From Polytrichum commune (lineage: Eukaryota > Streptophyta > Polytrichopsida > Polytrichales > Polytrichaceae), in the NCBI GenBank assembly GCA_950295325.1, contig OX485806.1, forward strand, positions 5,394,001 to 5,458,000: a stretch of DNA of 64,000 nt, written 5' to 3'. The position numbers were made by a program, and so were the translations under genes. Below the pieces are notes generated by a model that did no database searches, was not told the origin of the DNA, and worked only from the letters and a program-made list of their open reading frames with translations. Numbering within the stretch: position 1 is the stretch's first letter; every line of letters begins with the position of its first letter. This document shows positions 20,592-64,000 of the stretch, piece after piece.

Positions 20592-20619
20592 AACACTATA
20601 TTCGTTAAATTGAGACTTT
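20592..20619 (+). repeat. Left terminal inverted repeat of A1
   Basis: AACACTATATTCG followed by TTAAATTGAGACTTT; mirrored at 38,070-38,097 and at the right end of A2 (43,372-43,399). A2's end matches this end for about 45 bp, whereas A1's own right end diverges after 28 bp. Confidence 0.9.
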
Positions 20620-20776
20620 TTGGGCATTTTGAGACATTCATAGAAATAAGAACAAGGATAAATGGAACACATATTGGTGAAAGTTGTAAGATGCAAACAC
20701 TTTGAAGCGGGTGTTTAGACCAAGAACCCCATTAATAACTCATATTTGTGATGGTTTAGGGTGGGCAATCGAAACC

Positions 20777-21135
20777 TTAGACCAAATTGAAGGGGACATC
20801 TTAAAACATTCATATTAATGCACACAAAATATGAGAGCTTGTATGAATATGGTTTAGGTAGGGCAATCCAAACCATAGATCTTATTGAAGGGAAAATCTT
20901 AAAACATTCATATTAATGCACACAAAATATGAGAGCTTGTATGGATATGGTTTAGGTAGGGCAATCCAAACCATAGATCTTATTGAAGCGAAAATCTTAA
21001 AACATTCATATTAATGCACACAAAATATGAGAGCTTGTATGAATATGGTTTAGGTAGGGCAATCCAAACCATAGATCTTATTGAAGGGAAAATCTTAAAA
21101 CATTCATATTAATGCACACAATAAGGCACTCCAAA
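20777..21135. repeat. Subterminal 98-bp tandem repeats of A1
   Basis: About three and a half units of 98 bp, each containing GGTTTAGGTAGGGCAATCC followed by AAACC and the phrase AAAACATTCATATTAATG. A diverged version lies in the matching position of A2 (43,010-43,260). Subterminal repeats are usual transposase binding sites in large DNA transposons; here that role is inference. Confidence 0.85.
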
Positions 21136-21301
21136 CCTTAGACCATATTGAAGGCAAAATCATGTGACACTTATATTATTGCAAAAAAAACATACAAAGT
21201 ATGGCACGTAAAATGCATAGCATGCTAACACCACACATCCATTGGATAGTGCGACCCAAAATGTTCTTGCCTATGGCCCACAACCCTACGCCTACTATGG
21301 A

Positions 21302-21619
21302 CTATCTAGCCTCGGAGACTACCTCTTTTTCTTTTGCTTCATTTTCTTTTGCTTTTTTTTCTTTTGCCTCTTTTTCTTTTGCTGCGGCTTCTTTTGCTCG
21401 CATTGCTTCAACATTCCTGAAAATCTCCGCCCCGCGACTATAGCCATTCTTGGGGTGACGGCCAACAATAACACATTTTGGATTCCGTCGGCCGCCCGAA
21501 TTATACGACGAAGAATTCGAATACGATGAAGTGGACTGTCTTGCATTTCTGGTCATTGAGTAGAAACGCTCCAACTCGACGGACGGATCATCCCGCATAG
21601 GTTTACGGGCGGGAGCAAC
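21302..21619 (-). CDS. A1 gene, exon 6: Lys/Glu/Ala-rich tail
   Basis: 106 codons from acceptor GTTGCAG to a TAG stop. Contains ERFYSMTRNARQSTSSY, a Ser/Tyr/Gly-rich stretch, NGYSRGAEIFRNVEAM and a highly charged AKEKEAKEK tail likely to form a helix. A2 has the same exon at identical length; B's version (46,763-47,071) keeps YNSG, FSRGPEIFRAMEA and the Lys-rich end. Phase 0 at its start. Function unknown; a charged C-terminal tail on a DNA-associated protein is plausible. Confidence 0.7.
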   Translation of the reverse strand, partial: VAPARKPMRDDPSVELERFYSMTRNARQSTSSYSNSSSYNSGGRRNPKCVIVGRHPKNGYSRGAEIFRNVEAMRAKEAAAKEKEAKEKKAKENEAKEKEVVSEAR

Positions 21620-21749
21620 CTGCAACGCGTGAATGCAAGAACACACGTGTTAGTTTAGGGAGGAAGACCCAAACGTGTCACACGTTCATTTTTTAAGTGC
21701 GGGATGATTGTAATGCGCGGTTAACCATGTTGGGGGGGGGGGGTTTCAC

Positions 21750-22103
21750 CTTGTCACCGGGGGCGTTCCCGTCGGAGTCGGCGAGGAGGGGCAATGCGTC
21801 CCGCAAAGGAATAGGAAGGGTTCCACTCTTCGTTGGCCGAGCGTCCATCCGCAGCCGCCGTTGAGGTGTACTACTGCCGCCGGGCCGAGAGGGGGATGTC
21901 CGGACGCATTTGCGATTTATGCCTTTGAGCGGCGACGGGGACGCAGATCGCCGGAAGATTTGCTTGGGTGGGGGGCTATCGACGACGCCGGCGTCAATAG
22001 GCTCCTTGGAGTAGTCAATGGTTGACGCGGCATCGTAAACGGTCTCGTAGAAGAAGCTCCCCAACTCTGACTCGCTGACGATGTCAATCGAGGGCTCCAA
22101 ACG
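21750..22103 (-). CDS. A1 gene, exon 5: Pro/Ser-rich tail exon
   Basis: 118 codons between acceptor GCTCCAG and donor AAG|GTGAAA. Conserved core DAASTIDYSKEPIDAGVV, then SPPPKQIFR and SPSPLKG; B's version reads DAASAVDYS and NSPPP. Boundaries are the same in A2 and, at the same places in the alignment, in B. It lies 3' of the HAD-like exon, which ends in its own stop, so it must be reached by skipping that exon (phase 0 permits this) or by an internal start. Function unknown. Confidence 0.65.
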
Positions 22104-22194
22104 CTGGAGCAAAAAAGGAAACGAAACAAAACCCAAGGGAGGAGGGTTTGATAGAGCGCGTGAAAATCAAGATACATATGAAGCATATATTACA

Positions 22195-22262
22195 CAAAAT
22201 GAACGGGCGCGCGCGCACACACACACACACACACATACATACATACACATACAAACACACGT
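22195..22262. repeat. CA/GT dinucleotide microsatellite in an intron of A1
   Basis: GCGCGC then (AC)n, then ACAT/ACAC repeats, in the short spacer between the HAD-like exon and exon 5. Absent at the equivalent place in A2. Confidence 0.85.
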
Positions 22263-22268
22263 AGTGTC

Positions 22269-23081
22269 TCAAATGAGCTTGTTAAATTTCGCGTGAGATA
22301 ACAACTCTCTGTACAAATGGTCTCGTGGATCCAAGTATCTCTCGCCTATCGGATTGTTCCTAACAAAATTGTTTACGGGCAGTCCGCTTTCGCAGAGCGC
22401 CTGGAGGTATTTACCAAGGTCTAACAAAAATCGGTCCCGGACCTTCTCGACCGTCCACGTAGGGCAAACTATGAGGTTGGCCGTCGGGTTCAACATGTTC
22501 TTTGCGGCGCTGTCGTCCACCATGAGCGTGTTCTCGCGGGTGGGCCGGACGTCGTAGGGGACGCCTATCAATGACGGACGCTGGTCCCAAAAAATGGGCT
22601 TCAAGACCTTGAGGTATTGGGGGGAAGCGGGGTTGTTTGGTTTTTTGACGACTTTGCCGTCCGGTGTGTACAATATTCTACAGGCTTCCTGTGCTAGGAC
22701 CATGCAGGGGGGCTCGATGCCCTTGAAGATGAACTCCACGACGGCATTGGTGTTCTCGGCCGTCATGGAGCTCCACACGACCACCCACCATCGCTGTTGG
22801 GCCATCTGGAGGAAGGTCCGAAGCCACGGGCGGAGGTGAACTAGCTTGCTCTTTATGAATGTGGGCGGCCCGTCGTAATTAGCATCCTCGGGCTTGCAAA
22901 AGGGCACCGTGGGGGTCCTAGGGCAATGAACGCATTGGACGAGGACCCCGTTCAGGTCTAACACCAGGAATCGTTTCTTCGGCCGCGGGGGCGGGACGGG
23001 TAAAATCGGGGGCGCCGCCGCGCTGCCCTCTCCACTCCTTGGAGAAGAGCGTCGGGGAGCCGCTACGCTATGCTCCGAGCC
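22269..23081 (-). CDS. A1 gene, exon 4: FCP1/NIF-type HAD phosphatase-like domain
   Basis: 271 codons from acceptor ATCCGCAG to a TGA after NKLI. HAD motifs: LDLNGVL (motif I), VVVWSSM (motif II, Ser), KPNNP or KVLK as possible motif III lysine, and LMVDDS (motif IV Asp-Asp). The fold resembles FCP1/SCP phosphatases that act on the RNA polymerase II C-terminal domain. The second motif-I Asp, the usual general acid, is Asn in A1, A2 and B alike, so activity may be lost or altered. Frame is phase 0 with the preceding exon (GAG|GTAATG), so it probably forms the C-terminus of the ParB/methyltransferase-like protein. The NKLI stop is conserved in all three copies. Confidence 0.8.
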   Translation of the reverse strand, partial: GSEHSVAAPRRSSPRSGEGSAAAPPILPVPPPRPKKRFLVLDLNGVLVQCVHCPRTPTVPFCKPEDANYDGPPTFIKSKLVHLRPWLRTFLQMAQQRWWVVVWSSMTAENTNAVVEFIFKGIEPPCMVLAQEACRILYTPDGKVVKKPNNPASPQYLKVLKPIFWDQRPSLIGVPYDVRPTRENTLMVDDSAAKNMLNPTANLIVCPTWTVEKVRDRFLLDLGKYLQALCESGLPVNNFVRNNPIGERYLDPRDHLYRELLSHAKFNKLI

Positions 23082-23553
23082 CTGCGGATACGATCGAGAG
23101 AAAACGGTGGGCGACTTATGTCATGCTATGTCCAAACGAAGCATTTAAAGAAACGAGTGTTCTCGGTGCAAACACAAAACCATTTGATTCATTTTGGAGG
23201 GGGTGCAACAAGGGACACAAGAGAGGCAAGAGCATACAACATACATCCAAACACAGGATACAAGTATATAGGAGTAAAAAATGGTGATTATATTGTATAC
23301 AATGCTCTATGTACATCTTGATTGGGGGGGAGCCGCGTTGAACGATGCGTTCAAACTAGCCTACTTCTACATCTAGCAAAAATTAAAGAGACGGGCCGCC
23401 GTGATGAAGACTTCGTCGCAAGCCGGGGGTATGTGGACGAATGAATGGTCGGGGGGATGTGGCGAAGGGCGCGAGTGCCGGGGGGCGCGACGTGTGCGTG
23501 AGTTTAGGGTAGCTAGGGGACACGACCAAGGCAAGAAGACAAAGACCCAGGGA

Positions 23554-23948
23554 GTTTGGGTCGACCGACCCAAACTGAGTGGGGTCAGTGCATTACCTCG
23601 CCTTGGTCGCGCCTTGACGACGTGGATGCCGTCACCGCGTGCGCTGCCCCACCTCTGTCACCGCCGCCTCCGACGACGACTTCAGCCTCAACCTGCTCAT
23701 GCAAAGGCTGACTGTCAGGCCTTTGTCCCAACCCAACCTCCGCATGCGCATCATGCATTGGTTCATCGACTGGGTTAGGAGTAGAGGTATCACCAGGCCC
23801 TTGCGGGCCTTCAACATCTAACATGGGCTCGTCCACCGGGGTCTGATCGGGGACGGGGTTTGGGTCGGCCGACCCAAACCCTGTTGCTTGGCGAGCGTCG
23901 CTCTGGGAAGCTGCAACGTCGGCACTGTTTGGGTCGGCCGACCCAAAC
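23554..23948. repeat. Three A-type palindromes, one intronic and two exonic
   Basis: Perfect 22-bp sites (GTTTGGGTCG, 2 bp, inverse) at 23,554 (centre AC), 23,858 (GC) and 23,927 (GC). The first lies in the intron after exon 3; the others are inside the coding sequence. Confidence 0.95.
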
Positions 23949-24773
23949 ATGTGGGGGTCGTCCCGCTGGTGGTGTGGGGGCAAGAGGATGGGAGGCCGGA
24001 GCGGCGGGGGTCCCAACGGGCTGGAAGCTCCGGGGACGCGCCAAAGGTTGGGGTCGTCCACCTGCTGGACAGGCGCGTAAGGGCGGGCGTGAGGCTGCAG
24101 CAAATGCGCGAAGCTGAAGGACTGCTGCGTAGCCGGCCGCGGGCGGATATCCTGTGGAGGGAAGCCTGCTGGCAAGTGAGGGAATGAACTCGGGGGAGCC
24201 ATCACCAATCCCTGCGCCAGCATGCCCTGGATCACTTGCGTGATCAGGTCCGCTTGGGACGGAGGTGGGGCCATCGCCCTTTGCCGCTCCTGCTCCAACA
24301 GGAGAGCCCTCAACTCCGCGACTTCGTTGCGGACCGAGGGCTCCTCGGCGGCGGCCTTCTGCAATCGGATGCGTTGCTCCTCGTCCCGGAGCATCTTCGC
24401 GTTGGCCTCCTCCACGGTGAGGACCTCGGGTTTCACCCTCACCATCCCGGCGAACGCTGTGGGGGAGGCAGGATCCGACCTCAGCCTCTTTGCGAGCTCC
24501 ATGTCGTCCTCGTCCTCGGAGCTTATGGCGATCGTCTCTTCCACCGCATAGTCGCTATATAATTTCTTCCCCTTCAGCATTCGCCGCTCCCTGAAGGTGG
24601 CCGTCGCGTCCCTCGAATACATGTCCTTCGCGTCGGCCACCGTGAGGACGGGCACTAGCTTGCTCTGCGGCGTGGCAGCCCGCATGGCCTTCTTCCGCTG
24701 AGGGGCCTCGGATTCTTGAGTGAATCCTGTGAAGACTTATAGGCTTATAGGAGTAGATGTTCAACCCAGACAT
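23597..24773 (-). CDS. A1 gene, exon 3: end of methyltransferase-like domain and Pro-rich coiled-coil region (frameshifted)
   Basis: Starts at acceptor TGTGCAG with MSGLNIYSY, the continuation of methyltransferase motif I. About 310 bp present in A2 (39,211-39,524) are then missing, replaced by a short filler, and the frame shifts by one. Downstream is TVADAKDMYSRDATATFRER, acidic ISSEDEDDME, a coiled coil (VRNEVAELRALLLEQERQR) and a long Pro-rich segment. Two family palindromes are embedded in codons (23,858 and 23,927), giving FGSADPN peptides. The donor GAG|GTAATG lies just before an intronic stop. Exon length is not a multiple of three, unlike all its relatives, which confirms the lesion. 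Confidence 0.75.
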
Positions 24774-24855
24774 CTGCACAATCCAAATCAATAATATTAG
24801 GATCACAAATGAAGAATAAGCAAAAATAACACCCAAAACAAAACAAGAATACTTA

Positions 24856-25056
24856 GTTTGGGTCGAGCGACCCAAACTGTGCCTGCTCTAGTTTGGGTCG
24901 AACAACCCAAACTGTGCCTGCCCCTAGTTTGGGTCGAGCGACCCAAACTGTGCCTGCCCCTAGTTTGGGTCGAGCGACCCAAACCAAGCATGCCCTAGTT
25001 TGGGTCGAGCAACCCAAACCAAGCATGCCCATAGTTTGGGTCGCTCGACCCAAACC
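24856..25056. repeat. A-type palindrome cluster, 36-bp period, in an intron
   Basis: Six palindromes about 36 bp apart, separated by CTGTGCCTGCCCCTA or CAAGCATGCCC linkers. Centres are AG (one CT, the same site inverted). They fill the intron that splits methyltransferase motif I. Confidence 0.95.
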
Positions 25057-25088
25057 AGGCATATAGATCGACGAGGTTAGTTTCTTAC

Positions 25089-26420
25089 CATTGCTGCAAA
25101 AATCGGTTTGGAGCCCCCGAAGACGTTGAAGATGAAGTCCCCCCTCTTCGTGAGGGTCCTCATCATCCGCAGGTAAAAATCCATCCGCAGCTCATCCGCG
25201 GGGTAGTTGGCGTACTTCGCCTCGTCGTACAAGCTCCTGCTGGTGCCCAACCCTTCTGGGACTTGGAAAAGCTTTTCCATCCGGGCTATAGGATGGTTTG
25301 GCACCTTCAGCAGCTCAGCTTTGTACACGAAGTACAAGCACAGCACACAGACTATCTTCGTCTTCTTGTCTTTCAATGAGCTGTACGCCCCCTCCGCCGG
25401 TGCAGCAACGTAATGAGATTTTGAGACGGCGTACTCTGGTTGCAATTTACGCACGATCTCGTACACCTGCTCCGCCCTCCTGTCCTCGACAATCCACAAC
25501 CAGACGTCGACCTCCCTGAATTTGGGGCTGGCGTAGTCCACAAACTTGGTGAAGAACGGCTCGTAAAACGGGGTGCTCATTGTCCCCTCGAATGAGGCTC
25601 CAGGAATGTTCCTGAAGTCTATCATTCCGAAGGGGAAGCGGTCCCCAGCTGCAGTCCTGATCGCCATCCTGGACTCAGAGCCCGGCCAACCTTGGATCTT
25701 TAGAGGTTCGAGGGAGACCAAGTTGAAGTGAGCTTCGCCCTCGAACCTGACGATCTTCTTCTCCTTTATAAAGTTGGAGAAGGCACGCGCGGAGTGTTCG
25801 GGAAGCGCCCGGTTCCTCCCCCCCTTCACAAACTTGGACCTGAGGAAGTCGTCTCCCGCCTCCCTCATGAGTGCCGCCATGGACGCACTAGTGAACTTGT
25901 ACTCGGCTTTGAATGCCCTCCAGTGCGCCTCGTCAACCTCTCCGTCCACGATGAGCTTCTTCTCGGGCACCAGCTTGTGCAGCTCTTGGACAATGGTCGT
26001 CTTCTTCTTCCTGTTCTCCGTCCATTCCTTCAAGGTGTAGCATGAAGGGACGAAGATCTTTGGCTTCGTGAAGACGATCTTTGGGTGAACCCAGCATCTC
26101 TTCGCCGTCGGCTCCACGTGGAGGATGTGGGACGCCGCCTTTCCCACCTCTGTCTCTGAGAGACCTTGAAGAGCTCTAAAGAACTCCCTCACTAGTGGCT
26201 TCATTTGCTTGAAGCGCGCAGTCTGGTTGTACAGAATACCGGTGTCGGGATCGATGAGGTCTCCCGTCTCGTGTTTTTCGAAGACAGTCTTCCATTTTGT
26301 CCACACGGAGTCGGACGCTGTGATCAAGTAGATTTCTCCTCTTAGCTCGTTATATTTTTTTTGCTTGTGGCTAGCGTTGTCAATAGAGGAGAATTTATTG
26401 ATCATCTGGTATTTGAAGTC
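25089..26420 (-). CDS. A1 gene, exon 2: degenerate beta-class DNA methyltransferase-like domain
   Basis: 444 codons, acceptor TGTTCAG, donor CAATG|GTAAGA. The C-terminal part has the shape of beta-class N6-adenine/N4-cytosine methyltransferases: FGMIDFRNIPG where the catalytic DPP[YW] (motif IV) would be, WLWIVEDRRAEQVYEIV like the following motif, then ELRMDFYLRMM and GDFIFNVFGGSKPIFAAM. The last continues in exon 3 as GLNIYSY, matching motif I (DPFxGSGTT..AA..GR..xGxE). The motif IV triad is absent and GSG has become GSK, so catalysis is doubtful; SAM binding or DNA recognition might remain. The N-terminal ~190 residues match no family I know. B's version (50,866-52,191) aligns throughout. 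Confidence 0.65.
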
Positions 26421-26497
26421 CTGAACATGAAGTCAAGAACATATGTTAGAGAACACATCATGAAAAAAATGGAACAGCAGTTTAAGACATGCCAATA

Positions 26498-26746
26498 GTT
26501 TGGGTCGATCGACCCAAACTTTAAATCTGATGAAGACTATAAGACATGCCAATAGTTTGGGTCGATCGACCCAAACTTTAAATCTGATGAAGACTATAAA
26601 ACATGCCAATAGTTTGGGTCGATCGACCCAAACTTTAAATCTGATGAAGACTATAAAACATGCCAATAGTTTGGGTCGATCGACCCAAACTACAAAACTT
26701 GGGAAGAAAATAAAACAATACAAGAGTTTGGGTCGATCGACCCAAA
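26498..26746. repeat. A-type palindrome cluster, 57-bp period, in an intron
   Basis: Five perfect palindromes at 26,498, 26,555, 26,612, 26,669 and about 26,725, all with centre AT, joined by TTTAAATCTGATGAAGAC-type linkers. They occupy the intron between the ParB-like and methyltransferase-like exons. Confidence 0.95.
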
Positions 26747-26755
26747 CTTACTCAC

Positions 26756-28105
26756 CTCCCATTTTGGGTTCTTGTCTTTTGCATTCTCCCTTTCCTTGGG
26801 CGGCCTGCCGTAGAACTCCCACACATCCCTCGAGGCCATTATATTCCTAATCCAGGATGCCTGATACGCCCTCTTTTTATTCCCCATGTTGAAAAACCTG
26901 GAGATGTCACTGAGGACGGTCTCGTTGTCCGACCAAACCACCAGTGCCTTCCATACCTTCAGCTTCTCCTTCTGGTTGTTGGGGTCGTCCCATTCAATCA
27001 TCAGCTGGATTTTTTTGGAGGCCTCTACACTGTGCTGGCCGTCAATCAGCCAGAAATCTCCTTTAGAAATCGCCGGCCACATATCAGCCGTAGGCATTCT
27101 TTTTAGCCCCTGGGGCATCACGACAATTGTCTACCTGTCGTCCTTGAACTGCCCTCCCAAGATTTGAGCGACCATCCAGTCGACATAGGCATCCTCCTTG
27201 GCTCGGACACACTTTTCAGGTGGCGCAAGGTGGCATTGTGCAATGTTCACCTCGAACTTGAAGTCCCTGCCCATGAAGAAGCAATGGAGGCATTTCGTCT
27301 CAAAATTGTCGTTGATTTTTTGAATTTCCCCAGCATCAACCTCTTGGCCAGGCTTGGGCATCCGCAACTCTGGCGAAACTGGCTCGGTGGTCATGACTGA
27401 TGACTCTCTTGCCCTTTTCGACGGGGTCGTCTGCCGACTTCCGGACGGGGTCGTCTGCCGGCTTCCTGAAGGAGTTGGCGTCTCGCTGTCAGCCGGAGTC
27501 GAGGTAGTGCTCGGTCTTCTAGAATCTGCCGGAACCGCCAGCGGAATCCTCACAGATTGGGGTCTGGAGGAACCTGCTCCTTCTTCTGTCTTGGCCTTCC
27601 GCCTGACAGGTTGTTGCGTTTTTGGTTTGCTTTGCAACGCTTTATTCAAAACCGTGATCGCTTGTTTCAGTTTTGTGAACCTGCTAGCGACCTTGGTATT
27701 CGATACAGTGCCATCTATGAAGATGGTCTCCGGTTTTATTATCTCCGGGTCAACGCACGTCTCCTTGGCGTATAGGGGGTCGAAAGCCTCGGAGAATTGG
27801 TGCATGAACATATGCACGTTCTGCACTGCGGAGTTCTCTAGAATAACGTCAACGTGCTCCCCGAGAGCTTGGACGGAAGCAACCTCCCATCCCGTCAGCG
27901 TTGCCCAGGTGTGTTGCTCGTGGGTCCCCACTTTCACCACGAACAAGAGCTTGTACTGGGAGGCTTTCACAACCTGAACGGACCACGCAAAAACAATCCC
28001 ATCCTTTGGGACGTATGAGTCGTCCTGTGGAGTTTCGTACTCCTCCCAAAGGTAGTCTGGGGCGAGCATGAACCACCTCTCTCCAGGTCTCTTTTTAGTG
28101 GCCAT
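26756..28105 (-). pseudogene. A1 gene, exon 1: N-terminal region plus ParB/DGQHR-like domain, one in-frame TAG
   Basis: 450 codons from MATKKRPGERW, directly after acceptor ACTTACAG, to donor GAG|GTGAGT. Residues 1-~150 are an unrecognised globular region; ~165-260 are low-complexity Ser/Thr/Pro with a repeated SGSRQTTP. From ~265 comes a domain matching B's, with FWLIDGQHSVEAS, the box typical of ParB/sulfiredoxin/DGQHR nucleases and DNA-binding proteins, and FFNMGNKKRAYQASW. A TAG at 27,131-27,133 interrupts the frame exactly where B has CAG (Gln). It probably bound DNA at the family palindromes (inference), but this copy would yield a truncated protein unless another start is used (e.g. 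at 27,121). Confidence 0.75.
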
Positions 28106-28131
28106 CTGTAAGTCCAGAAATAAAATTGTTA

Positions 28132-28240
28132 GTTTAGGTCGATCGACCCAAAGTTTTTCAACTTGGATTGAACATCAGTGCGAATTGAAGGGTGCTCTAC
28201 TGGCCATCATGAAGAGGTTTGGGTCGACCGACCCAAACCC
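28132..28240. repeat. Two A-type palindromes upstream of exon 1
   Basis: A decayed copy near 28,132 (GTTTAGGTCG, centre AT) and a perfect one near 28,217 (centre AC), in the first intron or 5' region of the A1 gene. Confidence 0.85.
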
Positions 28241-28496
28241 AAGCCTCGAATAGCCTAATCTTATAAGAATTATTGGTAGAGTTCGGGTCTTAAGAATATG
28301 AATATATTGAATATTGTGTAGTGGTCAAATTATCCAACATGAGAGCAATTTTCGGTGACCTTCTAGAGCCGCGCTGGACGTATGTGGACATGCCAGCAAA
28401 TATCAGACGATTTCAAATTATAGCCATTTGAATATAATTTCTTGTTGATGGTGGGAAGGATGTTTATCTTGGGATATTGGATTTGTAGGTTGCAGA

Positions 28497-28806
28497 GTTT
28501 GGGTCGAGCGACCCAAACCAGCTGCAGAGTTTGGGTCGCTCGACCCAAACCAGCTGCATAGTTTCGGTCGAGCGACCCAAACCAGCTGCAGAGTTTGGGT
28601 CGAGTGACCCAAACCAGCTGCAGAGTTTGGGTCGAGCGACCCAAACCAGCTGCAGAGTTTGGGTCGAGCGACCCAAACCAGCTGCATAGTTTGGGTGGAG
28701 CGACCCAAACCAGCTGCAGAGTTTGGGTCGAGCGACCCAAACCGCCTGCAGGTTTTGGGTCGTTCGAACCCAACCAGCTGCAGAGTTTGGGTCGGTCGAC
28801 CCAAAC
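28497..28806. repeat. A-type palindrome array, 32-bp period
   Basis: Ten palindromes spaced 32 bp apart and separated by CAGCTGCAGA, itself containing the palindrome CAGCTG. Centres are mainly AG; one is CT and the last GT. Three units have one-sided point changes. No gene: the peptide repeats obtained by translating it are a by-product of the tandem structure. Confidence 0.95.
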
Positions 28807-28899
28807 TAGCTGCCCAGTTAATTCTTTATGGGTTTGGGGTTTTATATAGAGGTTTCGGGCGTCTACCGAAACCGTAGTGTTTCCATATTCACCCATAAT

Positions 28900-30000
28900 G
28901 TTTTACGCTGCATATACAATGCTTATACATTGTATATGCATGAAGACCCTAAAGGCTAAGAAGCAGGTTATGTTGAATGAGATAAGTTACCTTGATGCAA
29001 GCTCTACCAATCTGATGTTGTTTTGCGAATAGGTTTTGCGAATCTGATTCTTAGAATCTGATTACACCTGAACACTCAGATATCACTAACACTCACTAGA
29101 ATTCCACTCACTAGATTTCACAAACAACTCACAGACACTTCAAAACAACAAAAACACTCTGAAATCACTACAACGGCGCACTTTAAAACAAAAACACACT
29201 CCTAACCAACAAACACACTCTGAAATCACTCAATGCTCGTATTTTTAAACAAAACAACACTCCTAAACAACAAACACACTATGAAATCACTCAATGCGGA
29301 TACTTTTACACAAAAACACTACCCTACTACAATCACTCCTAAACCCTTACAAGAAGAAGAGAGAATGAGAGACGGCGAGAAGAATGAGAGAAGAGAGAAG
29401 GAGAGTATGAGAGAATGAGAGAATGAGTGTAAGTCGAAAGGCGCCGCTTGCAGTCCTAACCAACAAACACACTCTGAAATCACTCAATGCTTGTATTTTT
29501 AAACAAAACAACACTCCTAATCAACATACACACCCTGAAATCACTCAATGCGCATATTTCTACACAAAAACACTTCCCCAACCCCTAAACACACTCTACA
29601 ATCACTCCTAAACCCTTACAAGAAAAAGAGAGAATGAGAGAAGAGGGTTACAAGAATCAGAGAGGTGGAAAGGAATGAGAGAGAGAATGTGGGAAGCGGC
29701 GTTAGGCGGAGGCGCCGCTTCACGACAAGGTGAGAAATGAGGGAGAGAAAGGAGGGAGCTTGGCGCGGAGGGAGTTAAATAGACAAAGCGAAGGGTCGCC
29801 ATGGGACCCAATCTGGGCCATGGGAGCGCCCCGAGCCCATCTACGGCTCACAAGCCTCGCGGGCAGCCACCTTGCCATGTGTCAACACCTTATTGGTGAT
29901 GGTGGCTACCCGAGGCTTCTGGGGTGCACACTTGGCGCCTAGCGGCCACCCGGCCTCCTGCCCGCCAAAGCCCGGCCCCGGCCTTCTAAGCCGCTATCTA
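28900..30000. repeat. ~61-bp repeats and GA-rich region 5' of the A1 gene
   Basis: AAACACACTCTGAAATCACTCAATG recurs at ~61-bp spacing between about 29,100 and 29,600 (written here in pieces: AAACACACTCTG, AAATCACTCAATG), followed by GAGAGA-rich DNA and GGCGGAGGCGCCGCTTC. B has a counterpart in the same position (54,500-55,400) with different repeats but a similar GGCGCCGC element. I infer this is the promoter and 5' untranslated region of the minus-strand gene. Confidence 0.5.
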
Positions 30001-30531
30001 TAGCGGCTTAGCCCAAAAATCGAAAAGCAACATAGCCTAAGGTATTGCACATAATTAACACCATCACCAACTCTGATTTTAATGGTGTTCAATTCAATGG
30101 TCCCGCGTTGGAATTGCTTACATCATAGAATGAATCCATTATTTGTTTTAGTATTTGAATAATGTAGTCATATGGAGTAAGATGAGAGCGATACAAAGTC
30201 TAAGAGGAGTATTTCATAAGTAAATTGCAATTCTCAATGCAATTGCACGGTGCAACAATTAAAATATGGTGACAATTTACATGGTCAAGGGTTTAGTGCT
30301 CTCTATTGTAATTTCTATAACCCAAGTTCGTAGAAGATAAGGCTCTAGCATACAATGGATATTACCCACCCAAGTAGCATTAAATTCAACATTTATATCA
30401 GTACATAGAAGTTGACATTTGAAGTACATGGGAGATACACAAAGATTACAAATTTATCTACTGCAACCCCATGGAGTTCAACATCATATGAAGCCATTTA
30501 AGCATTAAGCTTGATGTTCGATGATCCCTCC

Positions 30532-30572
30532 AACCTAAACCCTAAACCCTAAACCCTAAACCCTAAACCCTA
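30532..30572. repeat. Interstitial telomere-like (CCCTAAA)n tract
   Basis: About five CCCTAAA units in tandem, followed by CCCTACAC. A similar but shorter tract lies at 56,255-56,296 inside B. Confidence 0.9.
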
Positions 30573-54469: not shown

Positions 54470-55340
54470 CAACAATTTCAGATTGTGAAGGAGTGATTTG
54501 TAAAGGAAACATGTACTCACATTGAATTGTTGCACACAAATCCTCCTGCCTTCACTTTGTCACACTCTCAAGCCTTCACAACTTATATGCAAATCCTACA
54601 CAAACCTTGATGTACACAACTCACAAGCTTCACAAAACTCAAGCTTTCTGAAGCTCTCAAGCTCTCAAGCTCTCAACCTTTCTGAAACTCTCAACCTCTC
54701 AACCTCAAACTCAAGCTCTCAAGCTTTCTAAAACTCAAGCTCTCAAGCTTTCTAAAACTCAAGCTCTCAAGCTTTCTAAAACTCTAAACCTCTCAAGCTT
54801 TCTAAAACTCTCTACCTCTCAATCTTTCTAAAACTCAAGCTCTCAAGCTTTCTAAAACTCTAAACCTCTCAAGCTTTCTATAACTCTCAACCTCTCAAGT
54901 TTTCTATAACTCTCAACCTCTCAACCTTTCCTACTCTCAAGCTTTCCTATTCTCAAGGTTCTGACAACACAACAAAACAACATTCACAATGAGGCTCTAA
55001 AATTGGCAAGGGCTTCGCCGCACCTAAGAGCTCCTCTCCTCCTCTGCTCCAAATGACAAATGAGGAGGAGAGAGAGGGGCGCGGGGAGGTAGCCGGCGCC
55101 GCTAGGGTTTCCAAGCGGCGGCCACGTGGCTAGTGGCCACTGGCGAGGGCTGGGATGGGGGAGGGGGATGGGGATGTGGGATGGGGAGGGGGAGGGGGAG
55201 GGGGATGGGGATGGGGATGGGGATGGGGAATGGGAATGGGGATGGGAAGGGGAGGGGATGGGGAGGGGATGGGATGAGGATGGGATGGGAGAAGGGGAGG
55301 GGGAGGGGATGGGGATGAGGGGATACCATGGGGACATGGA
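54470..55340. repeat. CT-rich ~25-bp repeats and GGGGAT satellite 5' of the B gene
   Basis: 54,600-54,950: repeats of CTCAAGCTTTCTAAAACT. 55,040-55,120: GA-rich and GGCGCCGC, as in A1. 55,140-55,330: (GGGGAT)n/(GGGGAG)n on the plus strand, with many runs of four G, able in principle to form G-quadruplexes. I infer the promoter and 5' UTR of the minus-strand gene here. Confidence 0.6.
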
Positions 55341-57600
55341 GGGATGAGGGTTCAGGAAAAATGAAATAGGAGATGGGAGGAGCTTAGTTTAGGGACATAA
55401 ATTTGACTTTCCGTATCCCCTTAGTACCTCGACATATGGATTCCTTGTAAACATATTTTAGAAAAGTATGTTCAGATAATTTGTATTTAACAATTCATGT
55501 CATTTAGTAGGTTTTCGATGAAGAATCCACCCCCAAGATGCAAATGTCGTTTTCATGAACGAGACATCTTTAAAGTTCTTCAATGGTTCCTCAAATAAAT
55601 ATTACATATATAAATGACTCAATTTAAATTGTGGAGAGGGGCTATCTGATTCTCCACAAGAGGTGGATGAAAATTCAATTTTCAATACGATGTCATTAAT
55701 TTCATGAGGTTTTAGCTTGAACCACCCTTAATATGATATTTAGTGTTAGATACTCTAAATACAAACGCATAGTACACTAAATATCACTAACCCTATGAAG
55801 GTAACTACTATTCATTGCGAACTCAAACACTTAATGTCAACTATAATGGTAATATGTGGATGTCGCATGCACAAATTTTGTGTAAGGAAATTAATATGAA
55901 AAAAACAATTAACAATGATAAAAGCATAAAGGACATGGTAGTAGGAAATGTGGTGGCCCATTTAATATGTCCAACACTAATTATCAAAGAATTGAAATTT
56001 AGTGTTGACCATGATAGCGTAACAACACTATATTATACAATCAAACACTAAATATCATATTTAGTGTAGTGTATTTTAGCCATGTGGTCGCATGTTTTGC
56101 TAGTAGTATCAATTGATAGTATGAGCTTCCCATAAATTAAGTTAGTGCGATATGGATTATTTAGGAGTCGATATTGTTTGTGTATATAATGCATTGAAGT
56201 AACGATCTAAACCCTAAGCCCGCAAACCACATAGACAACTCTTTCACAAACTCTATACCCTAACCCCAAACCCCAAACCCTAAACCCTAAACCCTACATC
56301 TTTTTATCTTACCAACCTTTCTTATATATGGCCATGTTGTGGTCTATGCGCATCATGTCAAAATGGTCTACCAATGTTGGTTCGATTGGAAATTGCTTTA
56401 TTTGGGTCATAGCAACTATAATAATCTAGACTCATGCCAATAATTGTCATTTTGATATAAAACATTGGTTTAGGGGGTGAAGAGTGAATTTTGAAATGCT
56501 AGCCCTTTCACCTTAATAGTTTTGAGTGCAATTTGATCACACAATACACACTTAGTCTTATTATAACATGAATGGTATAAGACTTCAACTTAAATCAACA
56601 GTTAAGCTATGGTCATGCACATACTTCTTGTTGCAAATAATACAAATATATAATTGTAAGTGCATACTATTGTATACACCATTCCAAATTCGTTATCCAT
56701 TTCCACACCATGGTGGACCTAAAGTGAATTTCCAATAGGACGTCAAGTCATTTAATTAGGTGTCAACTTGAACTAACGATCGAATACTAGTGCATTAAAC
56801 TTTAATTTTCACCAATGATGAATTGTAACAATGATTCATATTAATATGGGCCGATGTTTGGTGAGCCTCCAGTTCCAAATGTCCTCAATCTACCTAGCAC
56901 AAGCCATTATGGATTAAGCGACTTTTTATTGGTATTCATGCACTTGGTGACCATATTACAAGCATTTTTTTTATGTGAATCATATGATACCTACAATTTT
57001 AGGGGATTCCACAATATGTTCTTAGCCACTCTTACCTCATTGTGTGTGTGAATATATATATCACTTAGACCTTCATCAATTCACTTGGACTTCACACCTT
57101 AGTCGCAAATAATTTAATACTCAATGTTAACCCATCAACCTATATATATATAATATAATAACCCATATATAAAATAGTAAACTAATAAACTAGTAAAATA
57201 TACATATATAGACATATAAATATAGACATATAGACATATAGACATATTTTCGTGCGACCTTGGTAACAACTAAGGTGTGCGACGGATTTATAGATTTATA
57301 ATATGTTGCGTGCACGCAAGACATGTTCCATACATAATGCTATTTATATATTGCGCATGGATGGAATGGCATATTGTTAGGTCAAAGTAGGCGGCGGGAA
57401 TCCGCTTTTTAAATAGCATCCAAGGGATTTTGAACCATCGGGGGGAAGGTACTTAAAGCTCTTCCCCCCCACATAAGAGCTCTTTTCTGCGGCACATCCA
57501 AGTGTGCGCTCCACAGACCTGACTGGAACGCGCTCAAACCATTTTCTTGTGCGCCAACCCTACACCACCCAGGTCCACTACAGACTGCACATACCCGTAT
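55341..57600. other. Gene-free middle of B
   Basis: AT-rich. Contains a MITE-like copy (55,728-56,075) and a CCCTAAA tract (56,255-56,296), as does the matching part of A1; otherwise nothing recognisable. Confidence 0.6.
55728..56075. repeat. MITE-like element inside B
   Basis: Starts AATATGATATTTAGTGTT and ends AACACTAAATATCATATTTA GTGTAG. Same internal order as 31,690-32,017 (GATAC..., ACTAAATATCA, AAATTTAGTGTTG, TAACAACACTA). About 345 bp. Confidence 0.7.
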
Positions 57601-57614
57601 ATACCGCCGCAAAT

Positions 57615-58705
57615 ACCGGACGTTTACGAACGCACGTTCGTAAACGTGAGTTGGTAGCACATGTACAATAGGTACATCGATATGATATGAGTTGTTTACG
57701 AACGTGCGTTCGTAAGTTGATCGCAACCGTACTCGACATTGAGTTCCTTATAGACAGAACTAGGCACGAAAATTGTGTCGATGATATACGAACGTACGTT
57801 CGTATATCTACCTTCAAGACCCAGACGCGCATGAGTTCCCGTGTAACCGTTTTCTCCAACGGAACATCTGGTGATGGGATATTTACGAACGTGCGTTCGT
57901 AAATATCACCTGGGATTATTTTTCAAGAATCCAAAAAACATTCCTTAATTTATACACTTCAGTGCATTGGCCACGTTAACAATATGCAAGTTAAATACGA
58001 ACGAGCGTTCGTATTTCTCACTACCGTTTGTGTCCGCGGAGAATTATGTTAGTTGAATTTTACGAACGCACGTTCGTAAATACCACATGTCCACCGTCCA
58101 CGCATCCACCAACAGGCCTGTTGACGCAAGCATGTGTAGAGGACTACACCGTGTTTATGATAGATACGAACGCTCGTTCGTATCTATGCAATCATGATTT
58201 AGTGATAGATTTCGACTGTCATTTTCCACTGGTTATTGGATAACATGTTTCCCTGTAACGTGGCTATAGATACCTCTATTCGGACGTGTCCAATCATTTT
58301 TTCCAAACACTGTCGCGGCTGTGACATACAGATGATCGGTCGTTTGCATCCGCCCCTAAGTTTCGGCTGGAACTTACGAACGATCGTTCGTAAACACTCG
58401 CCCATCAAATATGATGCTTACTGCATGTGGATAAAGTGGCAAGTATATTTTAGGTGCTCTTATAATATGTCCCATTTAGATTTTACTGTATATTGGGTTG
58501 ATATTTTCGTCCGCACGTTCGTGAATATATGTGCTTGTGTTGTCCCTTGGTGGTGGACAACCCTTCCAATGTTTTATTGGCGACTCGATCCAAAGCCCTT
58601 CACGGGTAATATATATCGGAATGGGGTTCCGTTGTGCAGGGACGTCTGAGTCCCGTGTAGGATTTGCATGTCATCGAGCTGTTGTCGAACGCACGTTCGT
58701 CTTCA
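57615..58705. repeat. B-type palindrome cluster upstream of the transposase
   Basis: Sites near 57,623, 57,695, 57,786, 57,882, 57,995, 58,061, 58,163, 58,375, and two decayed ones near 58,508 and 58,684. Spacing is irregular (66-210 bp), unlike A1's 79-bp array in the same position. Many have symmetrical flanks beyond the core (arms up to 14 bp at 57,882). Confidence 0.93.
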
Positions 58706-58844
58706 TATGTGAGGTCCCGCAACGGTGTGGCGAGAGTTGTTTGTGATTTTTGAGCCATATATGTAGGCATATCTCGTATCCACTTTTGTATGCATTGCGG
58801 TGGTTGTTGTGTTGGTCATTTTATTGGTGGTTTGTTTAGGTTGG

Positions 58845-61800
58845 ATGGCGATGCACGTTGGATATAGTTCATTGGAGTTGTCCACAAAAGCTTCCTCTTC
58901 CGATGATGACTGTAAACTATCTTCGCCATCGGCGGGTAGTCATGGCATGGCAAATGCCATGGGTGGGTTTGTGGATGCATCCTCCCACGAATCATTTGAA
59001 GCGCACGAACAATCTATACGTTCCGGGGATGACAATGATGACATTCCGTTATGTGCCGGTTTCGGTAGGGAGCAATGGGTGGGCCTTGATGTTGTTCTTT
59101 TCAACGATGTTGGTGTCCCCGTGGCAGATGGCATATGTAGAAACTCTGATCCCCGTGATTGTGTTGATGCCAACCCCCTTGGTCCCGATGATGTGGGTGT
59201 GTGCATCTTGAATTCTTTGCTTCCGCTTGACGTCCCGGTGACATGGAGATTTTCCTTGCGTCGATGGCCTCTTTGTCGGGTTCTCCATGACGGAGTAAGC
59301 TTGTTGGACCATGAGCGCCGCCATAATCAAACGCAATTAGCTTTGTTGACCAAAATACGTCCTCGCAAAGGCCTACGCAGATATGATTCTAACCGTGTGC
59401 CTCGTGGAGATAAGGAACGTCGACGGGATCGCATATTGGGAGACGAAACTATCCGTCTTGTGTCCGCCAAAGACTGTTGCGAGAGGAAATGTTGCCAATT
59501 TTTCCCGTGGGAGAAAATTAAGTCCCTACGTCAAGAGATGTGGCTTGCGGATTTCCGTATGAGATCGGCAAAGAAACTCGAGGTCCACAGAAATGTCCAC
59601 ATTGACACCCATGGGCGTAAGGTGGTCACACTTGAGAATGTGGAAGTGTGTTGTACTGCGTGGTATACCATCCACGCCGTGTCAAAGTCTGACTTTTATA
59701 GGTTTCAAAAATATTCATTGTTCGGTCGCCGCTCTCGATTTCATGGCAATTCGGGCACAAAGAAACCTAGGGAGGCTACACTCCAAGCCTCCGCGACACT
59801 CTCCACCATCATAGTCCCATTGGCCGATGCAATGCCCCACAAGACGAGGACATTGTCGTCAGGGGAGAAAGTTGTACAAATGGTATTGCCCACGGGTACA
59901 AAATGGAAGAACATATTAACGGACATCAATGAAGTGGGTCGCATAGCGGGATGTGGGCCTATTTCTTTGTCCAAGTTGAGTGTGATTAAAAACCAACAGT
60001 TTGCCGAATACATTTTGAAGAGACCTGGGGACAAGTTCGCTAGATGTATGACGTGTGAAAAATACAAAGGTCTTCGAGACGCCCACCCCATAGGCACCGA
60101 ATCCCACACTAGACACCAAGCAAAATATATTGAACATGTCAACAACCAAGAGGCTCACCGTCAAAATTACTACAAGAACCGTGCTCTATCCATAATGAGG
60201 CCTACAGAGGTTCTAACAATCATCCATGATAAAATGGACCACGCCAAGACCGCATGCCCTTGTTATGCACGCAAAATTAAGGCCACGGATGGTCTCTTCA
60301 AGTTGCCCGTATCTGTCACAGGTTTGTATTGAATCACAAATATGTATTCAAATTCTCTCAAATTTTACTGGGTGTGTTTGCCAAATGTCCAATTTCATAC
60401 CTCCGTTTGGAGTTGTCGTTGTTATTGTTGTTGTTCAAGCATCGTTTGTTTTTTTTCGCAGGGATGATTGCCCACGGCCATGGAGACGTAAAGTATGCCC
60501 ATTATGGGTTGGATTTTTACCCTGGCGATGCTAACCACACAGTGGGTTCATTTGCAAAACTCTTGCGCGATCTGGAGAAGCCACCGTTACATTCATCACA
60601 TGCACTTTTTGATGGTTGTGGAACGACACCCCTTTACGAAGCAGTGCTTGCGGGAAAGGAGGTTTGTATGTCGTCATTGCCAGAACCACCGGGAGAACCT
60701 ATTTGTGCAAAACCATTGCCTCCAACTCTTCACGTTCAACTTGATCATTGCGCGAAAGACAACAAATGTCGATACGTATTTTATTTTTGGTCATTGCTCG
60801 TGGCGAAAGGAATCTTCAAGGAGGTGTTTGTGTCGTTTTTGATGGTGGGACATACACACGACGACATTGATGCATCATTCGGACGGTGGAGCATGAAGTT
60901 GCATGAAGAAGATTTTCCAACCATACCTCTTCTTATGAAATCGTATATGGATTTGGACCATATGCCAGTAATTCCGCACATGATTGAGGAAGTACCAGAT
61001 TTCAAGGCCTTCATCAAGTCATACATGTTGAAGGGAGGGGACCGTTTGGTGGGGCATACCAAAGCACAACAATTCCGATTCTATATAAGGGATGATGGTC
61101 TCCCAGCCATGCAATTCAAGCTTTTGTGCACATCTCCTAATTGGGGACCGGATGATGGTATACTCGTATGGCGTCAAGACAATGATGGGAAATGTTTGCT
61201 CCCGGATGGGGATCCAAAGCCTTGCAAACCCGACCCCATGAGGAATGGGCCGGAAATCATCAAAGGCATATCCGGATTCATTGAATATTGGAAAGAGTTG
61301 TGTGAGGAGGACATCACTAGACGTGTTAGAGATACTCATGAACCTTTGATTGCGTATTGGGATCGCATTCGCTCGGCCCTAATGACACTTGGTGGCGACA
61401 CCCGTACAACTTTAACACAAGGATTTTGGCCACAAAGTCATTTGACGGTTGTCGAGTCCGACACCATGGTTTTTAGCAATGGAGACGTTCGTGAAGAGTT
61501 CGCAATGGACGAGCATTACGTTGGCCCTGCCCGCAAACGACCGGCACCGTCGTTTCGTGTAGGTGTTGATTGCCATGAAGGTTATTTGGTCCTTGTACGA
61601 GCAGGGGATGAGGAACATCCCAAGCCAATTTGGTTGGTGAAAGCATTGTCTTCACCCAATTTTGTTCGAACTAGCCCCAACTTTCGTCAGATTGAGGTGG
61701 AATATTGTCGTCCAAGTACTAAAGACCAGAACGTGCTACGCACTTATTTAGGTTGGGACACCAAAAAGAATTTTAAGTGGACAGTGGACTCAGCGTACAC

Positions 61801-61981
61801 ACCGGTTTGGATAAACACGGATACTATACTTTGTGCTTGGAAGCCGCGCAAAGGTTCCAAAACAGAAACAATGACCATCCCCCAAAAACATATAGATTTT
61901 GCCAAAGACAACTTGGCACGTATTGCAGCTGCGGAAAATGACGCCGAGAATGGATATGAAGCGGAAGACGGAGATGTGTAA
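58845..61981 (+). CDS. B transposase (RNase H-like, DUF7869-type), two exons
   Basis: Exons 58,845-60,321 and 60,462-61,981, joined to 998 residues without a stop. The intron is ACAG|GTTTGT...TTCGCAG, at the same codon as in A1 (SVTG-MIAHGHGD). Acidic N-terminus, Cys/His regions (KDCCERKCCQFF; CMTCEKYKGLRDAH), candidate catalytic acids in IHDKMDHAKTA, QLDHCAKDNKCRY and GHTHDDIDASFGRWS. The second-motif Asn of A (LDN) is His here. The start chosen is the first ATG after acceptor TTTAG. Likely responsible for mobilising B; looks intact, so B may have been mobile recently. Confidence 0.8.
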
Positions 61982-62384
61982 ACATAACATAGGTGGGAGT
62001 TCATGGCGAAAAACATGGACGCTTAGTAGACTTGGTTTTTAATAGACTTCATGGACTTGTCACACTCCATTGTGGTATACGTTTGGGATGTGCCATCCAA
62101 ATTCATAAGAGCCTTACTTATGGGATGCGCACCCCAAACTCTATAATGACATAAACCATTTGTTTTTTTAGATTCGATTGTTATTTTCCACATGGAACTC
62201 ACGTTTGCATTTTAATTGACATTCTCTATTTTTAGAAATAAGAATATTCTTTACGTGCAACTTTTTAAATCGTTATATTCTTGATGTTCCCAATATTTCG
62301 TATGCCCACAATATTGGCATCCCAAACTATGGGCAGATTTTATTTTGAGACTTTCGAAAGTCTTCGATTAACGAATATAGTGTT
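61982..62384. repeat. Right subterminal region and inverted repeat of B
   Basis: Carries GTTTGGGATGTGCCATCCAA, GGGATGCGCACCCCAAACTC and GCATCCCAAACTATGGG, short mirrored blocks like those near the ends of A1 and A2, then GACTTTCGAAAGTC (a 14-bp palindrome) and the terminus CGAATATAGTGTT. Confidence 0.75.
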
Positions 62385-64000
62385 TTATATGGCTGTCCAA
62401 TATATATGGGGTTCGGGACCGAAACCTTCCTTGGGAGGTCCCTAGGTGGGCTCATTTCAACTTAGAAACTAACACTTTCAAGCCTCGGCTATACTTTGAG
62501 ATTTCAAATGCTCACTTTATATGTGTGTAGTTGGCCTCATTTCAGGTTAGAATGTAGTACTTGAAGATGGGCTATAGGCTAAGATTTCAGGTTGTCACAT
62601 TATATGGCTCTAATGGTTAGAGGTTAATTACAAAGCAACATTATCAATTTGGGTCAAATGATACTTACTTTTATCTACAATGTGTTGACTCTTTGGTAGG
62701 TGCATGTTATATCTTCGCCACCTTCGACACAAGTATCGGAGGGAAAGCTTCCAGATATGGATATACTAGAGGACGAGCATGAGGTAGAAGAAGAGTCTCT
62801 TGGAGATGATGCTCATTTTCTAGGTAGTGAGGATGAGATTCGGACCAGGCAAAAAATTAACTTTGTGGCCACGATTACAAGTTTGAGATTTCAACCTAAT
62901 AGTTCTTCGCGATTTAATATTCCGTTGTGCAGATTGATGGCAATGCCAATGGTACGGCCAACTCTGGCATCCAATCTTGCTAAGCTCGAGCAAGAATTTG
63001 TCCACGGATACAGGGAAAGCGCTTCGGTCTTTTATGTTACAATCACCAATGAAGACGAAAATACCCATGAAGTGACGGAAGCTGATAAAGCTTCTTGGGG
63101 TCCTATTTGGGATGCCAAAAACGCCATTTTCAACTCATTTCTCCTCTCGGATCCAGCGTTGGCTCCATTCACAAATTTGATATTTTTTGTGTGCGACGGC
63201 AACCATAGGCGTCAAGCTTGGTTAAATCACATTGACAGACTTCACCGAACTGATGAGGATTGGCATTATTTGGTGGATTCAATTCTCCTTGATACAAAGG
63301 GGAAAAATGGACTTGTTATGCAAGTCATGCACAACATAAACAAGTATGTTCATTCTCTTTTGATATATAATCTTTCATTGAAAATTCAATATGATTTCAC
63401 TTTCTTTCTTACTACGATAATCTAATATCTTCCATTTGATTTTTGTATTTAGACATACAGAGGACTCTCATGTGAAGACCAACATTGTCTATACCCTCTT
63501 CAAGGTTCAGAAGTATGGTCTTATGTCAATTGAACAATTCAATGACATTTTGAGTCCAACTGACCTAAAAAATGGCAAGAAGTCTCAGAAGACTTGGTAT
63601 TCGTTACCATTACATGTATTTACAAATTTCATATTTCAGGTGCATCACGGAATAGTCCTAATGATTTTGTAAAATATGTGAACTTTGATGGTGGGCTATA
63701 GGTTAAGATTTCAGGTTCTCACATTTTGTGGATGTCCAATATATGGGGTTCGGGACCGAACCCCAATTAGAAGGTCCCTAAGTAGCCTCATTTCAGGTTA
63801 GAATCTAACACTTTGAAGCCTCGGCTCTAGTTTGATTTTTCACATGCTCACTTTATGTTGGTTTAGTTACCTTCATTTCAGGTTAGAATGTAAATCTTTG
63901 AAAATGGCCTATAGGCTTAGATTTCAGGGTCTCATTTTATGTGGGTGTCCAATATATGGGTTTCGGGACCGAAACCTTCCTTTGGAGGTCTAGAAGGTCA
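62385..64000. mobile_element. Element C, right visible part, with a ParB-like gene
   Basis: Resumes the C tandem units (palindromes near 62,410, 63,745 and 63,963) after transposon B. Between them lies a ParB-like gene (62,700-63,672). The element runs off the window. No AACACTATATTCG end of C itself is seen, so its class is unknown. Confidence 0.8.
62700..63672 (+). CDS. Element C ParB/sulfiredoxin-like protein, partial gene of at least two exons
   Basis: Exons 62,700-63,343 (acceptor TTGGTAG, donor AACAA|GTATGT) and 63,453-about 63,600 or 63,672, joining in frame at K-HTEDSHVKTN. An acidic N-terminus is followed by a ParB-N-like domain: FNIPLCRLMAMPMVRP and LAKLEQEFVHGYRE, then FFVCDGNHRRQAW (ParB box II G-x-x-R-R), WHYLVDSILLDT and MHNINK. 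This parallels A/B's DGQHS and FFNMGNK or FLNSGNK positions. A later acceptor-like TTTCAG at 63,637 suggests a further exon; the C-terminus may be lost to the array. Upstream exons are likely. Proposed role, by inference: binding the GGTTTCGG palindromes of C. Confidence 0.65.

Follow-up and report, generated by a model that had tools for sequence, protein, structure and literature searches.

A 64,000-nucleotide stretch of the genome of the moss Polytrichum commune (contig C4, positions 5394001-5458000; hereafter the window) holds transposon-like elements of three families, A, B and C, each of which carries repeated copies of its own short palindrome together with a gene for a protein with a ParB-like box. 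This arrangement raises the question of what reads the palindromes, and to what end. Our analysis suggests that the reader is quite probably a protein encoded by the elements themselves. Related copies were sought in the 408-Mb assembly (64 contigs); these searches scored the best candidates only, so that copy numbers are lower bounds, and families were sampled from the top of the match lists, partly by choice. The window contains the following element DNA.

20592-38097: element A1, complete, with termini AACACTATATTCG...CGAATATAGTGTT
38098-43399: A2, a fragment from the left end of a different A copy, inverted, with ORF2', ORF3', NIF' and five palindromes
43400-46361: left part of C, with tandem arrays and palindromes GGTTTCGG.GA.CCGAAACC and GGGTTCGG.GA.CCGAACCC
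46362-62384: element B, complete, lying inside C, with a 4-bp target duplication, TTAT
62385-64000: right part of C, which runs on into the next 10 kb (locus L005)

Each family has its own palindrome

The A palindrome, GTTTGGGTCG.NN.CGACCCAAAC, occurs in 39 exact copies in the window, of which 34 lie in A1, five in A2 and none elsewhere. All 26 exact copies of the B palindrome, ACGAACG.NN.CGTTCGT, fall within B, and the C palindrome, GGTTTCGG.NN.CCGAAACC, has five exact copies. An earlier note on this DNA had described family-specific palindromes of perfect half-sites around 2 bp in A, B and C, and these counts bear it out, each type being confined to its own element. Genome-wide, we counted 9,231 exact A sites, compared with zero for a permuted half-site control and zero for a reversed control. 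A single shuffled version of the window contained no site of any of the eight palindrome types considered here, even when up to two mismatches were allowed.

The centre dinucleotides vary in A and B around fixed arms, and in the C arrays, both those in the window and those in the 10 kb that follow, they are fixed as GA or its complement TC. Palindromes with family cores were over-represented at even centres only; these were 2 bp, plus 0, 4 and 6 bp, which arise when one and the same site is read further out or further in. Among long palindromes that contained no family core, 2-bp centres were not in excess. The 2-bp centre therefore belongs to the recognition word, as would be expected for a dimer of fixed geometry.

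Sites surround the element genes

A and B are built to the same plan, with a minus-strand cluster of NIF phosphatase, ORF3, ORF2 and ParB-like genes and a divergent DUF7869 gene, which we infer to be a candidate transposase gene in both A1 and B. The DGQHS box in the A and B proteins and the DGNHRR box in C, both reported in the earlier note, are present in the sequence.

22269-23104, minus strand: A1 NIF (NLI-interacting-factor-like phosphatase, PF03031; Pfam E 2.5e-13), with homology to A2 and B extending to about 23104
23585-24730, minus strand: A1 ORF3, of no family, homologous to A2 and weakly to B, with homology to 24730
25077-26405, minus strand: A1 ORF2, conserved but of no family, with no convincing Pfam, PHROG or PDB match
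26750-28105, minus strand: A1 ParB-like gene with DGQHS box; in-frame stop at 27131-27133 in the window copy
34481-37566, plus strand: A1 DUF7869 gene (frames 34481-36040 and 36082-37566; PF25273, E 3e-40)
47839-48444, minus strand: B NIF-like segment (tblastx homology to A1 NIF)
49224-50726, minus strand: B ORF3 (reading frame and homology)
50749-52269, minus strand: B ORF2 (reading frame)
52266-53681, minus strand: B ParB-like gene with DGQHS box; interrupted in the window copy, a single 490-aa frame in L001
58800-61981, plus strand: B DUF7869 gene (PF25273, E 3.6e-38)
62700-63422, plus strand: C exon with DGNHRR box (best 150 of 1236 genome candidates scored)

The ParB-like gene is broken in the window copies of both A1 and B, and single frames are found elsewhere, of 490 codons for B and of about 494 codons in many other A copies (for example L035). 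The exact A and B sites fall into four groups.

23554-28806: A palindromes around the minus-strand cluster, 19 exact
32921-34059: A palindromes upstream of the DUF7869 gene, 15 exact; a 79-bp tandem array holds 14 of these
48800-54195: B palindromes in the gaps of the minus-strand cluster and upstream of it, 18 exact
57626-58391: B palindromes upstream of the DUF7869 gene, 8 exact

The 19 A sites of the cluster comprise one in the NIF/ORF3 gap, two inside ORF3, four in the ORF3/ORF2 gap, five in the ORF2/ParB gap and seven upstream of ParB. Sites thus precede both of the divergently transcribed units and occupy each gap between the frames of the cluster; to judge from the sequence, the gaps that hold palindromes are probable introns. 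Homology-supported coding segments make up 44% of A1 and contain only 2 of its 34 exact sites (p 1e-6); the corresponding segments of B, 48% of the element, contain 3 of 26 (p 1e-4). In A1 and B the exact site closest to an element end is 2.4 kb away, and on the strength of this position we reject end-binding by a transposase as the role of the sites.

Site type follows protein subfamily

Genome sampling added five palindrome types to A, B and C: D (ACGGACG / TTACGGACG), E (GGTGAGGCA), F1 (ACGGGTG / CCACGGGTG), F2 (ACGGGCG / CCACGGGCG) and C' (TGTCTCGG). Sixteen loci were taken from the 150 DUF7869 matches listed; 13 of them had at least three copies of one 2-bp-centred palindrome, and 15 did so at up to two mismatches. 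The types at these loci were A, B, D, E, F1 and F2, always centred on 2 bp. Eight C-like loci were likewise taken from 150 listed matches, and four had a repeated palindrome (C sites in L026 and L033, C' in L028 and L027), or five if we count L030, whose three near-palindromes ending in TCTCGG match no type. L031 (positions 1098, 2449 and 2924) and L032 (1071) have lone long palindromes of unrelated sequence, with arms of 10-11 bp and a 2-bp centre.

When site types were tabulated by locus at up to two mismatches, nearly all single-element loci showed one type or its sister type, the sister pairs being B/D, F1/F2 and C/C'. L058 carries both A and F2 sites, because this locus spans an A end plus an F2 element; one A-like site beside two F2-like sites in L060 is unexplained. 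No sites were seen in L021, L022, L029-L032 and L063. All 12 loci with a D ParB-like gene (the six best and six chosen, of 106 listed; proteins 77-100% identical to the query) had exact D sites and no exact B sites, and all four B loci had exact B sites and no exact D sites. Both A loci had A sites and both E loci had E sites; of the loci in this survey, L002 and L034 come from the window itself, and L036 and L064 overlap L024 and L023. The earlier note had supposed that protein and site diverged as pairs, and palindrome type does co-vary with protein subfamily, exclusively so for D and B among the sampled loci. Six of the eight palindrome types are seen with a ParB-like or DGNHRR gene adjoining, and neither the ParB-like gene nor DUF7869 is seen in every family.

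Predicted fold of the ParB-like protein

Sequence comparison does not recognise the A/B or C proteins as ParB: Pfam, PHROGs and PDB sequence searches gave no convincing family for the ParB-like, ORF2 or C proteins. Above the Pfam cut-off, the A and B proteins scanned matched PF25273 and NIF, and the element proteins scanned gave no ParA-like Pfam match. A PF20608 match in one of nine C members (E 5.6e-4) was judged to be chance, and a match of DUF6551 to the box of the D protein (E 0.18) fell below any cut-off.

One of two structure comparisons gave a different result. We modelled the B protein of L001 (490 aa, seven-row alignment), and VIA-align 2 placed residues 312-440 on Myxococcus ParB (7bnr_A) with Z 9.8 and an rmsd of 2.7 Å over 95 residues. 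The top 21 VIA-align rows were all ParB, Noc, KorB, PadC, SbnI or sulfiredoxin, 11 of them at Z of at least 8; SbnI has the ParB/Srx fold. A PH/FERM-like match at approximately residues 54-210 (Z at most 6) was too weak to use. The A protein is a homologue, 36% identical to the B protein. Together, these results support a predicted ParB/Srx fold for the A/B kind of protein, and to that extent the ParB-like nature proposed earlier; the assignment rests on one structure model of moderate local confidence. The model of the C protein has a pLDDT of 38.9, and profile comparison with C was not significant (E 0.061).

A putative element-encoded reader

The explanation we favour, with chances that we put a little short of even, is that an element-encoded and probably ParB-like dimer binds its own family's palindromes and keeps the copies active or regulated. 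The palindromes would be bound by a homodimer of fixed geometry, most likely the adjoining ParB/Srx-fold protein or a larger product that contains it; the identification of the reader with the ParB-like protein is somewhat better than an even bet. Binding along the internal noncoding DNA would mark the element's own copies and keep them transcribable. Such marking would constitute sequence-specific anti-silencing or self-regulation in the manner of the VANDAL/VANC system of Arabidopsis, discussed below, although a role in anti-silencing or expression maintenance is itself not quite as probable as its opposite. Hairpin-templated correction would carry symmetric changes across a site, and tandem duplication would pass them on to other sites, so that site and protein could drift together and new families could arise.

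Several observations weigh against this explanation. The B model is of low confidence overall (mean pLDDT 44.9, with approximately 65-82 at residues 311-430), and Foldseek found no significant match to it (best E 0.6), with no ParB in the best 50 of 216 rows. A helix-turn-helix was not identified; the B helices past residue 434 are of low confidence, and the ParB rows end near residue 440. L021 has DUF7869 and no palindrome at up to two mismatches, and three of the eight C-like loci (L029, L031 and L032) lack a repeated palindrome. The F1 and F2 copies examined have palindromes but yielded no complete ParB-like gene, these copies being interrupted or incomplete. Beyond the F1 DUF7869, at 1.1-1.7 kb, there is an N-terminal ParB-like fragment (24% to B, E 7e-8), perhaps a stray piece of D. 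A one-mismatch B site at 47485 lies 1.1 kb from the left end of the element. The symmetric flanks described below are confined to B and D: A, F1, F2 and C sites give no such signal, the A value (p 0.001) arising only through the base adjoining the core. Finally, DUF7869 and the ParB-like protein diverge together, so either could track the sites and the survey cannot tell which is the reader.

The strongest alternative is that another element protein (DUF7869, ORF2, ORF3 or NIF) binds the palindromes for transposition control or autorepression, the ParB-like domain being otherwise employed. DUF7869 accompanies the palindromes in A, B, D, E, F1 and F2, including those F copies in which no complete ParB-like gene was found, and the F1 and F2 versions are about 90% identical, with palindromes that differ by one base per half. 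However, no DUF7869 match was found in a 22-kb stretch around one C copy with a DGNHRR gene and arrays, so DUF7869 may not be the common factor; this stretch may be less than the whole element. In addition, the outer 2.4-4.1 kb of A1 and B, the part on which a transposase has to act, contains no exact site. We regard this alternative as unlikely.

The palindromes might instead matter as structures, either RNA hairpins or DNA cruciforms, rather than as protein sites. B and D sites do carry extra symmetric flank bases of varied sequence, with perfect arms of up to 27 bp; compared with random flanks the excess is significant for B (p 2e-4 to 4e-4), and in B and D it is greater than in any of 2,000 shuffles. 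However, A, F1, F2 and C sites show no extra symmetry, the half-site is fixed within each family, which structure alone would not require, and long core-less palindromes have no preference for the 2-bp centre. Rfam gave no match at gathering score across 20000-64000. Among one-change broken pairs on the sense strand, G-U (18) was not favoured over A-C (21; 30 other; p 0.75; 189 distinct sites, 123 of them perfect, with the strand of C loci uncontrolled), which speaks against selection on an RNA hairpin. On this evidence we consider a purely structural role improbable.

The same sites bear on how the words change. Symmetric double changes account for 13 of 27 two-mismatch sites, although these represent five distinct sequences, many from one array or one repeated site. 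Quasi-palindromes are subject to hairpin-templated correction, and the symmetric double changes and flank symmetry fit this mechanism. At three D sites a 2-bp centre is flanked by perfect arms of 27 bp (L071 837), 22 bp (L073 496) or 17 bp (L070 417), with unrelated outer parts. L070 also has a copy of the L071 site, altered at one position in an arm.

Less probable still is that a functionless motif was multiplied passively by tandem-repeat expansion. Many sites do sit in tandem arrays, with periods of 32-97 bp. However, the core recurs in unrelated contexts, the A and B centre dinucleotides vary around fixed arms, and the palindrome columns are better conserved than the spacers in five of six arrays (p 0.02 to 4e-8; the 32-bp array gave p 0.12). 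In the 79-bp A array the palindrome columns have an identity of 1.00 versus 0.87 for the spacer (p 7e-6). The least probable reading, a genuine ParB/parS-like partition or clustering system in which the protein spreads from its sites and clusters copies or aids segregation, has in its favour that the closest folds are ParB, Noc and KorB and that clustered palindromic sites adjoin the gene, but chromosomal elements need no partition, the element proteins scanned gave no ParA-like match and the box reads DGQHS, and we give it very little weight.

Element borders and neighbouring features

Exact right termini occur at 38085-38097, 43387-43399 and 62372-62384, and the terminus AACACTATATTCG is common to A and B. 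A1 extends from 20592 to 38097 because of the exact right terminus at 38085-38097. This terminus overturns a reading of A1 and A2 as one element with long (1.6-kb) terminal repeats; A2 is inverted and comes from a second copy of A. At the left border of A1, 26 of the 57 other matches listed start at window positions 20588-20592, the remainder start further inside and none starts further left. The A1 flanks, TAAC and AGAA, show no target-site duplication.

Other element boundaries also had to be redrawn. B is nested in C, with C DNA on both flanks, the DUF7869 gene at 58800-61981 belongs to B, and C is represented in the window by part of an element that extends past 64000. The left border of B is matched by 37 of 39 other long matches that start within window positions 46355-46366, with one at 46344 and one at 46405, and all 39 stop at 62384-62391. 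A 4-bp target duplication, read by eye, is present in seven of eight testable B copies, the window copy included; the L048/L049 pair lacks one, and copy L050/L051 was excluded from the count because its left end is truncated. The hallmarks of DNA transposons are thus present, as common termini in A and B and as target-site duplication in B copies.

A1 starts (20592) where an NB-ARC reading frame (19672-20613) ends, preceded by a kinase gene at 17871-19571; the A1 insertion seems to cut a resistance-type gene. Near their left ends, A1 and A2 share a 1.1-kb noncoding block (21125-22201 and 41957-43038) that is 93.8% identical. Identity is lower in their genes (76-79%) and in the outermost 0.4 kb (85.8%), an unusual order, which raises the question of recombination or conversion. 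CpG observed/expected ratios are 0.96 in B, 0.78 in A1, 0.46 in the left C arrays and 0.64 in 1-20591. Telomere-like CCTAAAC repeats lie within A1 at 30534-30572, and coding remains with DUF4218 and DUF4216 domains, which we take to be of a CACTA-like class, occupy 3647-8373.

The NIF phosphatase is a host-type gene carried by the transposons. FCP/SCP enzymes have a DxDx motif where the element NIF of A, D and F2 reads D-[LV]-N-G (22269-22964 and 41145-41939; L023 9041-9820; L025 1569-2390). In ORF2 (50749-52269 and 25077-26405) the segment (I/F)DFR.IPG is conserved, and a second, (Y/F)NV.GG(S/T)K, comes after it. By motif only, the two look like motifs IV and I of permuted DNA amino-methyltransferases, so that ORF2 is possibly methyltransferase-like, and its place after the ParB box is reminiscent of phage ParB-methylase proteins. 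A C exon in L005 (6477-6848, plus strand; copy in L062, 3339-3731) reads LDLILADIPEGLP...DDGAIILFHPF and has a methyltransferase-like look, with no Pfam match. In a C region, L061 (266-3989, minus strand), divergent frames of 488 and 755 codons without a convincing Pfam match are possibly the C transposase gene.

Comparison with known systems

The earlier note considered such a system undescribed in plants. Among the papers listed on moss DNA transposons and novel transposase superfamilies, on ParB in plant transposable elements and palindromes, and on ParB domains with methyltransferases in eukaryotes, no title or opening of an abstract describes one. No literature was found on DUF7869 or on the Polytrichum genome assembly and transposons. 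The functional arrangement, however, is already known in plants as VANDAL/VANC (PMC5735166).

If the favoured explanation is correct, plant transposons would have evolved sequence-specific self-recognition on at least two occasions, using unrelated proteins, and a ParB-like fold would be present in a eukaryotic mobile element. The recognition code would then be legible, with eight palindrome types, some one base apart per half-site, and thousands of A sites in one genome. The families would then provide a test bed for the splitting of DNA-binding specificity and for transposon escape from silencing without harm to the host genome, and possibly sequence-addressed tools for the epigenome.

Fungal DNA transposons that carry TET/JBP dioxygenases (PMC12730594) likewise bear a gene whose presumed target is the host's epigenetic marks, but there the means is enzymatic demethylation and not palindromic self-sites. 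The bacterial systems ParB/parS, Noc/NBS and KorB/OB share with the moss elements the fold predicted for residues 312-440 of the B protein and clustered palindromic sites close to the gene. The moss elements differ in being eukaryotic transposons with a DGQHS or DGNHRR box and 2-bp-centred sites that change with the family; compared with ParB/parS, no ParA was seen among the proteins scanned and no helix-turn-helix was identified, and of the features that go with CTP binding and hydrolysis in ParB the sequence shows the DGQHS or DGNHRR box. It is conceivable, though we think it rather unlikely, that these are a plant counterpart of ParB/parS in transposons, in which ParB-fold proteins load at family-private palindromes, spread over the element and exclude silencing, while hairpin correction within sites, by transferring a change in either half-site to its partner, lets protein-site pairs split into mutually blind families. 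Sulfiredoxin, which is found in plants too, belongs to the same fold superfamily, but its matches are weaker than those of ParB (Z 6.4-7.0; Arabidopsis Srx 6.7) and its context is different.

VANDAL elements have Mutator transposase among their proteins, and VANC carries DUF1985; no Mutator or DUF1985 match was found at E up to 1 among the A and B proteins scanned against Pfam. Hosaka et al. (2017; PMC5735166) show that, in the Arabidopsis element VANDAL21, VANC21 is bound at short motifs within introns, between genes and in terminal noncoding DNA. Tandem repeats carrying the motif are found in the VANC21 and VANB21 introns and also upstream of VANA21, and VANC proteins change together with their targets. 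The same VANDAL regions are tied to RNA-directed methylation by Sasaki et al. (2023; PMC10398659). The moss elements show this hallmark of a family-specific repeated motif in noncoding regions: on both sides short motifs, often in tandem, lie in introns (probable ones in the moss), intergenic DNA and upstream of the (candidate) transposase gene, motif and family co-diverge, and each element encodes several proteins. In contrast, the VANC21 motif as given there, YAGTATTAY, is non-palindromic and has one orientation, whereas the moss sites are palindromic; VANC is found in terminal noncoding DNA as well, whereas exact moss sites are absent from the ends; and no ParB fold is mentioned for VANC in the portions of the two papers available. 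The moss elements further differ in their DUF7869 candidate transposase, AACACTATATTCG terminal repeats and 4-bp target duplication. Loss of methylation has been demonstrated for VANC, and for the moss elements an anti-silencing role is a proposal. The moss elements are not members of VANDAL but probably work like them.

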